Shown here piece after piece: positions 39,827 to 60,511 of a stretch of DNA of 64,000 nt. The notes under the pieces were generated by a model. That model did not search any database. It saw nothing but the letters and a program-made list of their open reading frames with translations, and was not told where the DNA came from. Position numbers and translations under genes: made by a program. This DNA is from an uncultured Arenicella sp. (GTDB taxonomy: Bacteria > Pseudomonadota > Gammaproteobacteria > Arenicellales > Arenicellaceae): positions 1-64,000 of the forward strand of contig CALAKU010000002.1 in NCBI GenBank assembly GCA_937922925.1, written 5' to 3'. The first letter of the stretch is position 1. Every line of letters starts with the position of its first letter.

Positions 39827-39931
39827 GTGACGACTAACCCGATCACGGCACCCGAATCAACTGCTGCGGCTGCTCCCTTCCGGGCCTGACCGGGTTCACA
39901 ATTTATCGCCACCGTGGAGACTAGCCGTCAC
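39827..39931 (-). ncRNA. ffs: signal recognition particle RNA (bacterial small, 4.5S)
   Basis: Minus strand GGTCAGGCCCGGAAGGGAGCAGCC apical SRP motif; ends pair (GTGACGGCTA ... TAGTCGTCAC), followed by TTTTT; next to dnaX as is common. Confidence 0.95.
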
Positions 39932-55946: not shown

Positions 55947-56768
55947 TTAATTTCTCAGTTGGCTTTGAATTGCGGTGAGGATGCCTCTGAGTATCTGGAC
56001 CTCTTCGCCGGTCAATTCAGCTTTAGAGTATAGCCTTGTGAGTTTACGGAACAAAACAGTGGGCGACTCTGATTTAACAAAATCGAGTTCATACAAAACT
56101 TGTTGTAAATGCTGTAAATGCCCCTCTTTGGAAGCCTCATCAGCAGGGAGTTTGCGCTTTTGGGCGCCGGTGAGAGGCTTAGTGCCGAGTGGCTTAATAT
56201 TATTGGCAAGCCTTTCTTCTTGGCCGCCCTCGCCTGCAGCTGACTCGCTCTCGGCGTCTAAATTGACTAGGGCTACGCGTAATTCGTAAGCCAAAATCTG
56301 CACCGCCGAGGCAAGATTTAACGACGAATACTCAGGATTTGCATCAATGCGTATCTGTCCATGACATCGCTCTAGCTCGGCGTTCGTTAAACCACTGCTT
56401 TCGCGACCAAAGACGATTGCGATTTGTGCTGAGTCGACGCCGTCAAACAGCGATAAATGTTGGCTCGCCCGCTCAGCGGCCTCACGCGGGCTACTCGTTG
56501 GCCAACTCACTTCTCGGTCTCTTACCGAGGTACCCAATACCAAGGTGCAGTCGGCAACCGCGTTGGCTAGGCTATCGACTACGTTTGCGTTGTTAAGCAC
56601 GTCTTCACCACCCGCAGAGCGCTTTGTGGCTTCGTAGTGCGGAAACTTTTTGGGTTGAACGAGGCTCAATTGACTCAATCCCATTGTCTTCATCGCGCGC
56701 GCTACCGCACCGACATTACCTGGATGGCTTGGCTCAACCAAAACAATTTTAATCGCGGAAAGACTCAT
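55947..56768 (-). CDS. trmJ: tRNA (cytidine/uridine-2'-O-)-methyltransferase TrmJ
   Basis: [46 protein letters not shown] opens to 56849. Confidence 0.92.
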
Positions 56769-57125
56769 ACAGCAGAATTTGGCTCCAGTTATGTAAGCAT
56801 CAGCAGACGTTGGCGAGTGTAACCCAGTGCCATACAAAAAAATCGACATTCAGGCAGAGCAAGCTCATGCAGCCATATAATTTCTCTGCTATCGGAATAA
56901 TTATTAAACGGCTTTTTACGCTAGAGCCTGCCTAGGCAAACAGAAATAAGGCCAAATCAAGAAACCACAAGAGCAAACACTCGGCAAACCTCGGCGCGTA
57001 TCGACAAACGCATCACCCAATATAGTGGCCCTAAAAAGGGCCTAGAGTCAGTAAATTAGGGCTACTAAAAAGATAAGCGCAGGGCTACAATTCGCCCCGA
57101 CTTTTTTGCACTTTGGTAATTCTGC

Positions 57126-57920
57126 ATGAGCACCAACACTAGCTCCGGCGCTCTTAATGTCGCGACCGCCGCGGCACTTGAGGCTGGTAAACATATTAAT
57201 CAGCAAATCGCCAAGCTCGACAGAATTGAAGTGCAATCTCGCCCTAATGACGAGCAGCGCAGTAATTGGGTAAGCAGTGTTGATACTCAGGCTGAACAAT
57301 TGATCATCGAAGCACTGGATGCCGCGTACAAAGACTATCGAATTCATGCCCGCGAGGCTGGCGAGATCGTTAAAGGCGATGCTGGTGAGTACACCTGGCT
57401 GATCGAACCTTTAAACGGCACTCTCAATTTTATCCACGGCCATCCGCACTGTGCGGTGGGCCTCGCATTACAACAAAAAGGCGAGACCCTATTAGCGGTT
57501 GTTTACGACCCATTTCGCAACGAATTGTTCACTGCCCGAAATGGCGGTGGCGCCCAGTTAGATGGGCGGCGAATTCGAATCTCGGAAGTGTCTCGTTTGC
57601 GCGATGGTTTATTGTGCACTGCGCTGCCGAGGCGTGGCAGCAAAGCCACCAAACAATGGCTCAAAACCTACGCGGGGCTATTACCGCGAGCTCAGAGCAT
57701 TCATCAAACCAGTGCCCCTCTTCTGGATTTGGCATTTTTGGCTTGTGGCCGCTATGACGCCTATTGGGGCTTTGGTCTAAATCATTGGGAATCGACGATT
57801 GGGTCTCTAATCGTGCGAGAAGCCGGTGGGCTTATTCATGAGAACGCCGGCAATATCAGCGCCGGTACGCCAAAAATTCAAGAAAAGCTGCGCTATTTCA
57901 CTCAAAACCAGCTCGACTAA
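57126..57920 (+). CDS. suhB: SuhB-like inositol monophosphatase family protein with substituted active-site motifs
   Basis: Overall SuhB alignment ([34 protein letters not shown]) but WLIEPLNGT replaces WxIDPLDGT; divergent from trmJ as in E. coli. Confidence 0.85.
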
Positions 57921-57928
57921 TCATCAAG

Positions 57929-60511
57929 ATGGCGCAGAATCACACGCCAATGATGCAGCAATATCTGCGCATCAAAGCCGACTACCCTGACATACTGGTG
58001 TTTTACCGGATGGGGGATTTTTACGAGCTGTTCTACGAGGACGCGCAACGCGCTGCGCACTTGCTCGATATTACGCTTACCGCTCGAGGCAAGTCAGGCG
58101 GTGCGCCCATTCCAATGGCCGGCGTGCCCTTTCATGCAGTTGATCAGTATCTGGCTAAACTGGTCAGACAAGGCGAATCAATTGCCATCGCTGAGCAAAT
58201 TGGTGACCCCGCAACCAGCAAAGGCCCGGTTGACCGAAAGGTAGTACGCGTGGTCACGCCCGGTACCTTGGTTGAAGACAGCTTACTAAACGAGCGCCAA
58301 GACAATCTACTCGCGGCCGTCGTTCAGCAAGATCAGCATTATGCGATCGCCAGTTTAGAGTTGTCGCTGGGCCAATTCACGGCGCAACAATTAGATTCGT
58401 TAGAGCATCTTCAAGCCGAGCTTGAACGGTTAAAACCGGCGGAAATTTTAGTCGCTGAAAATCAGCTCTTAAGCACCCAACTGAACTTGCCAAGCGCGGC
58501 CAGCAGTGTGCCGCCGTGGTACTTTGATTTTGACGTGGCCCAAGAGTTGCTGTGTCGACAGTTCAATACCAAAACTCTGGTGGCCTTTGGATGCCAAGAC
58601 TTTCCGTTAGCAGTCAGCGCGGCCGGAGCCTTGCTTCAATATACCAAGGACATGCAGTACCAATCGGTTCCGCACATAACCGATCTTCAGCTTAGCCAGA
58701 AAAGCGACTTTTTGATTATCGATGCGGCAAGTCGACAAAACCTTGAGATCGAGGTTAATCTTGGTGGAGGAAAGAATCACACCTTAGTCGCACTCATGGA
58801 TCGTTGCGCTAATCCGATGGGCGCGCGATTACTGCGGCGCTGGCTGCATGGGCCAATTAGTAACCAAGAGCAATTGGGCCAACGCCAGATCGCGGTTGAT
58901 GAATTTATTCACCGACTGCCACAAGACGACGTTCATCGGCACCTATCTTATTGCGGCGACGTAGAACGAGTATTGAGTCGCATCGCCTTGAATACGGCCC
59001 GACCACGAGACTTGGTTCGCTTGCGAAGCGCATTGCAAACGCTGCCGGCGTTACAAAATCTGCTAAGCGACGCGCAGTCTGAGCTGTTGCAAATGAACGC
59101 CAATCGGCTTGGCCCGTTTAACCAATTAGTGCAACTCCTAGAGCACGCCATTCTCGAAGAACCCGCTGCAGTAATACGAGAGGGCGGCGTGATTCGCCCC
59201 GAATTCGATGAAGAATTCGCACAACTTCATCGCTTAAGTAAAGACACCGGTGCATTTTTATTAGAACTCGAACAACGTGAGCGCGATACCTCAGGGATTG
59301 CCAATCTGCGCGTTAAATACAATCGAGTGCACGGGTTTTATATTGAGGTCAGTCGCGCACAAGCCGACGCTGTGCCTGAACATTATATTCGCCGACAAAC
59401 GCTTAAAAACGCCGAACGCTATATCACAGAAGAATTAAAGGAATACGAAGATAAAGTTCTGAGCGCCCGAGAGAAGGCTTTAGCGAGTGAAAAAGCGCTG
59501 TATCAGCAAGTGATAGACACACTTCAGCCGCAGGTTCCGGCCATGCAAGCCATGGCTCAAGCTTTGGCGCAATTGGATGTATTGAGCAATTTTGCAGAAC
59601 GAGCGCTTAGCCTAAATTTTTGCAAACCTACGCTGAGCAAAGATGCGCACATTCAAATCTCTGGCGGCCGCCATCCTGTTGTTGAAGCCAATCAAAGCAC
59701 GCCGTTTATAGCTAATGATCTGCATTTTGATCAACACACCAAGATGCACGTTATCACTGGCCCTAACATGGGCGGCAAAAGCACTTACATGCGTCAATGT
59801 GCTTTGATCACACTGCTGGCATACACGGGGAGCTACGTGCCTGCCGATAGTGCCGTGATTGGCCCTGTGGATCGCATATTCACTCGCATCGGCGCCGCTG
59901 ATGATTTGGCCGGCGGGCGTTCGACTTTTATGGTGGAAATGACCGAAATGGCCAACATTTTGCGCAATGCCGGCCCCAATAGTTTAGTGTTAGTCGACGA
60001 AATCGGTCGCGGAACAAGCACTTACGATGGCCTATCACTGGCGTGGGCCTGTGCTATTGATTTGGCGGAACGAGTACAAGCCTATAGCTTGTTTGCTACT
60101 CATTATTTCGAGATCACCGATTTAGCCGACGCCTATCCAACTGTCAGTAATGTTCATCTGGATGCCGTCGAACACGGTCAAGATATCGTGTTTATGTATC
60201 ACCTAAAACAAGGCGCAGCAAATCAAAGTTACGGTATTCAAGTTGCTCGTTTAGCGGGCCTGCCTGACGCGGTATTAACCGCCGCCAGAAAAAAGCTCCG
60301 CGTACTTGAACAATCGGCGCTCTCTAATTCTACGCACTCAAACTCTACCCACTCAAATTCCGAACAACAAAGCCTGATTTTAGAAGAACCCGAACCGAGC
60401 TTTGAAGAGCATCCGCTGAGTCAAAAACTGGCTAACATCGATCCAGATGAACTAAACGCTAGACAAGCTCTTGAACTATTGTACGAGCTCAAAAAAGAAG
60501 TCGGCGATTAA
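57929..60511 (+). CDS. mutS: DNA mismatch repair protein MutS
   Basis: [13 protein letters not shown] mismatch-binding Phe motif; Walker [29 protein letters not shown]. Confidence 0.98.
60323..60367 (+). repeat. in-frame 15-bp repeat (SNSTH)2-SNSEQ in the MutS C-terminal linker
   Basis: tctaattctacgcac / tcaaactctacccac / tcaaattccgaacaa. Confidence 0.85.

Follow-up and report, generated by a model that had tools for sequence, protein, structure and literature searches.

An Arenicella SuhB orthologue with a dismantled metal-binding site, a candidate pseudo-phosphatase

The suhB locus and its host genome

The window analysed here, that is, the whole stretch of 64,000 nucleotides, carries an open reading frame (ORF) at 57126..57920 on the forward strand, which runs from ATG to TAA and encodes 264 aa. 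The product was assigned to PF00459 (Inositol_P) with an E-value of 3.9e-45 and 154.9 bits, against a curated cut-off of 27. In an Inositol_P search of the genome it scored 154.7 bits, compared to 204–249 bits for full-length copies of intact orthologues and paralogues in the genus. The NCBIfam equivalog PRK10757 gave 174 bits and stayed below its cut-off of 332, a threshold possibly tuned to near relatives of E. coli.

The AF2 model of the protein (pLDDT 71.5, pTM 0.76, from a shallow alignment) has the inositol monophosphatase (IMPase) fold. Its best PDB matches were the SuhB:NusA-AR2 complex 6ib8 and the rrn antitermination complex 6tqn, which speaks for the fold only. The solved relatives closest to the suhB product are the SuhB proteins of P. 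aeruginosa and E. coli. The former (8wdq and others) is the closest solved sequence and is also among the best structural neighbours, but its active site is intact and was solved with inositol-1-phosphate, unlike that of the window SuhB. With E. coli SuhB (b2533), a Nus factor and inositol-1-monophosphatase, the window protein shares the family, the predicted fold, the divergent trmJ neighbour and 36% identity.

The gene lies mid-contig, on a 129-kb contig, between trmJ (55947..56849, reverse strand), encoding the tRNA Cm32/Um32 methyltransferase and divergent as in E. coli, and mutS (57929..60511, forward strand), whose start follows the suhB stop by 8 bp. trmJ adjoins suhB in 16/16 full-length genus orthologues and in most order-level relatives, and the E. 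coli order is identical. Since this gene order is shared with E. coli and the genus, the ORF is the suhB orthologue by position, as the SuhB-family assignment in the initial annotation had implied. By vertical descent it is the trmJ-linked suhB of an Arenicella species, and no stray paralogue. Two smaller points concern the neighbours. The mechanical trmJ ORF includes about 27 extra N-terminal residues, and the homologous start is probably a later ATG near 56768. The suhB-mutS gap (57918-57932) measures 8 bp here and 17–161 bp in sister genomes, with possible translational coupling to mutS.

The host genome is a 2.69-Mb draft in 104 contigs, reported as 87.6% complete with 0% contamination. 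Two PF00459 genes were detected in this assembly, suhB and a gene on contig 6 (L002). The latter is the second intact IMPase for which a search had been proposed; it encodes 273 aa with the motifs EEFG, DPLDGT and WDIAAG intact. It belongs to the same Pfam family as the window SuhB, with 34–35% identity, but falls in a separate clade and is without trmJ linkage. That clade is old, was sampled in 14 genus genomes and has a support of 100, and a recent duplication was rejected on these grounds.

Metal-site residues and the distribution of their loss

The window protein was compared in an alignment with E. coli SuhB, whose residue numbering is used below, and with 16 genus orthologues, 14 genus paralogues and 21 wider relatives. 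The metal-ligand assignment was taken from the description of M. tuberculosis SuhB and human IMPase (PMC2080633), the human ligands E70/D90/D93/D220 corresponding to E67/D84/D87/D212 in E. coli.

In the alignment, 4/4 metal-ligand carboxylates of the window SuhB are replaced (E67R, D84E, D87N and D212E), so that R, E, N and E stand where the canonical active IMPase has its ligands. Residue 76 is R (CGC, 57351..57353, forward strand, as for all residues given here) in place of E67. The signature W-x-[IV]-D-P-x-D-G-T reads WLIEPLNGT (57396..57422), in which residue 94 is E (GAA, 57405-57407) for D84 and residue 97 is N (AAC, 57414-57416) for D87. Towards the C-terminus, W-D-x-A-A-G reads WESTIG (57786..57803), with E (GAA) at residue 222 for D212 and I at residue 225 for A215. 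Both readings agree with those quoted in the initial annotation. That annotation had also listed the glutamate pair of the TEESG motif as lost (AREAG). This holds for the first glutamate, the metal ligand E67; the second, E68, is retained, as is D44. D84E and D212E are chemically mild and conserve the charge, while E67R is a charge reversal. Loss of any of the four ligands was found in 0/52 of the other aligned sequences.

Further changes in the window SuhB are K34R, P60K, G156A, R184Q, G186S, E205G and A215I. The first places R at residue 39 (57240..57242) for the family lysine, the metal-3 lysine in the mobile loop (PMC2080633). R184-x-G186-S187 reads Q-T-S-A (residues 194-197, 57705..57716). 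Residue 215 is G (57768..57770) for E205, which we take to be a substrate contact from family knowledge (M. tuberculosis E228). An in-frame deletion of eight residues (24 nt) relative to all sisters lies between residues 239 and 240 (57840..57845).

Among family-wide invariant columns (≥95%), 10/38 differ in the window SuhB, compared to at most four in any other sequence tested alike. Structural invariants away from the metal site are mostly retained. Of 47 columns that are invariant in the genus and near-invariant in relatives, 11 are changed and 36 kept, and all four ligands are among the 11 (hypergeometric p = 0.002). In M. tuberculosis SuhB, mutating these metal ligands cuts activity dramatically (PMC2080633). 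Because all four ligands are lost, the window SuhB is very probably catalytically dead, and would neither bind Mg2+ nor hydrolyse phosphate monoesters. The initial label of candidate pseudo-phosphatase is supported by the loss of four of four ligands. Beyond what the initial annotation had listed, ten of the 38 family invariants are changed.

The genus sample comprised 18 genomes, 16 of which, besides this one, had a full-length orthologue; in the last one, G008, contig ends interrupt the gene. All 16 orthologues have the same neighbours and intact metal-site motifs (EE, DPxDGT and WDxxAG) and are without the eight-residue deletion, and genus-wide loss was accordingly rejected. Their identity to the window protein is 49–57% by tblastn. 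A degenerate DNA pattern for the N-for-D (D87N) signature matched this genome alone out of 369 searched from the class, a search that would miss pseudo-SuhBs with other ligands lost; the intact signature pattern was present in 53/56. The four-ligand loss is private to one species among the genomes compared.

Two side observations were made on the sister proteins. The genus SuhBs read DPxDGTH rather than DPxDGTT at E. coli position 90, with the rest of the signature intact, and the window has L there. The second most divergent SuhB of the genus (L018, genome G014) retains all four ligands; its substrate glutamate E205 is replaced by A, and its grouping with the window SuhB is weak.

Decay, maintenance and competing explanations

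On the SuhB protein tree, the path from the most recent common ancestor to the tip is the longest in the genus for the window protein (0.80, compared to 0.19–0.60 for the sisters). The paths of trmJ (0.57; sisters 0.39–0.81) and mutS (0.38; sisters 0.38–1.03) are ordinary. With acceleration in suhB while both neighbours evolve at ordinary rates, the change in constraint concerns suhB itself.

The leading rival explanation is that suhB is a redundant gene under relaxed selection and on its way to being lost, its frame still open as the relaxation is recent or as translation into mutS selects against stops. In this case other proteins would supply the catalysis, and perhaps the Nus role too. We regard this as a real possibility, but not a probable one. 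It is favoured by the fast suhB branch, by changes beyond the ligands (R184, G186, A215 and P60) together with the eight-residue deletion, by the shrinkage of the suhB-mutS gap to 8 bp, and by an intact paralogue in the genome with the loss limited to one species. Against it, the gene is without stop or frameshift and has kept 36 of the 47 invariants. The frame is open over 264 codons at ~55% identity to the sisters, in spite of the in-frame deletion, and the GC content by codon position resembles that of trmJ, mutS and the intact sisters. In a codon model, with the optimiser limited to 25 iterations, omega = 1 over the whole suhB branch was rejected (2dlnL = 29); the contrast between foreground and background omega was not measurable because synonymous sites were saturated. 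Under simulated neutral drift at 0.2 substitutions per site, 0.6% of such ORFs stayed stop-free, which makes neutral relaxation over the entire branch unlikely. Relaxation may, however, be recent, and since mutS starts 8 bp after suhB, protection of the frame by translation running on into mutS has to be reckoned with. Of the hallmarks of a pseudoenzyme, the fold and the loss of catalytic residues were both found, and maintenance was supported over the whole branch only.

It is improbable that hydrolase activity persists with a changed use of metal or a changed substrate, although D84E and D212E keep carboxylates at two ligands, E68 and D44 are retained, and a displaced site might function. 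E67R introduces a positive charge at one of the metal ligands, two more acids are lost through D87N and E205G, and the mobile loop is altered by K34R, a combination present in no compared relative. We consider it equally improbable that the protein was neofunctionalised for a non-catalytic role outside the Nus system, for example in binding a phosphate-containing ligand or RNA in a remodelled pocket. The accelerated evolution did hit pocket residues, including the change from E to R, and R184 was lost, but a positive sign of a new ligand is absent and the case concerns a single species.

Intact motifs in sister species had been named in advance as a sign of recent decay or of a sequencing artefact. 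The sisters are indeed intact (16/16), but neither an artefact nor decay by frameshift was indicated, and the divergence is deep (~55% identity). A chimeric or error-laden sequence is very unlikely in spite of the draft state of the genome (104 contigs, 87.6% complete), as the codon changes are numerous and independent, the deletion is in frame and the gene lies mid-contig between ordinary, syntenic neighbours, with 0% contamination reported.

A putative non-catalytic role

In E. coli, SuhB interacts with NusA AR2 and with the rrn leader, and the effects of suhB mutants are relieved without any requirement for its IMPase activity (PMC6614801, PMC4807359). E. coli variants without RNAP binding fail to complement a suhB deletion (PMC6614801). 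The laboratory variants without IMPase activity, with which the suhB phenotype is still relieved, are a precedent for the separation proposed here. D87N is reportedly the laboratory SuhB variant used by Chen and Roberts in 2000. The window SuhB naturally has N at position 87; the laboratory case is a point variant, whereas the natural loss extends over several sites, including E67, D84, D212 and R184. E. coli SuhB, an active IMPase, has E67, D84, D87, D212 and R184, and the window SuhB has none of these five.

The best single explanation, to which we attach an even chance, is that a catalytically dead SuhB has been kept for a non-catalytic and most likely Nus-type role. The protein would keep the IMPase fold while having lost catalytic Mg2+ binding and phosphate monoester hydrolysis. 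It would be expressed, with purifying selection maintaining it for a function that depends on fold and surface and not on catalysis, most likely as a scaffold in the complex for Nus/rRNA antitermination and rRNA folding, where it would bind NusA AR2, RNAP and rrn leader RNA. The NusA of this genome (511 aa) has AR1 and AR2, the latter ~49% identical to that of E. coli. This explanation is favoured by the four-ligand loss, the open ORF, whose start and synteny are conserved, the rejection of neutrality over the whole branch, the acceleration of suhB only, the intact paralogue and the presence of NusA AR2.

Several observations stand against it. The loss is seen in one draft genome, with no close sister sharing it, and D84E and D212E are mild. 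R184, which in E. coli lies in the dimer core and is linked to RNAP binding, is Q in the window SuhB and R in all other compared sequences; R184I reportedly lost RNAP binding and complementation in the work of Wang et al. in 2007. The E. coli contacts to NusA-AR2, K251 and L254, are E and R in the window SuhB, and E and variable in the sisters. As these two positions are not conserved in the genus, a preserved Nus surface is not recognisable from sequence. The suggestion that this lineage has kept SuhB as a transcription factor was consequently not borne out as a demonstrated fact, with R184 lost, K251/L254 unconserved in the genus and a single species involved.

More tentatively, and with somewhat less than an even chance, the case may be a natural separation of function, in which IMPase chemistry was permanently lost, SuhB became purely a transcription and rRNA-folding factor and catalysis was left to the ancient paralogue. 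In such a division of labour the remaining need for phosphatase would be met by the intact contig 6 IMPase. The evidence on the need for SuhB phosphatase chemistry in rRNA synthesis has so far come from laboratory variants of one species. If the reading is correct, a wild bacterium living with a metal-free SuhB and an intact paralogue would offer independent evidence for the separability of the phosphatase and rRNA-synthesis roles, and the protein would be a ready-made reagent for testing this. A limited literature search found no bacterial IMPase-family pseudoenzyme, and as far as that search shows the window SuhB would be an undescribed one.

Two further features were recorded. A third, more distant IMPase-family gene is present in several genus members and absent from the assembly of the window; the copy in one sister genome (G017:C247:3048-3896) carries one in-frame TAG. 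The sole Rfam match in the window is a bacterial small SRP RNA (RF00169, 66.7 bits) at 39830-39925 on the reverse strand.
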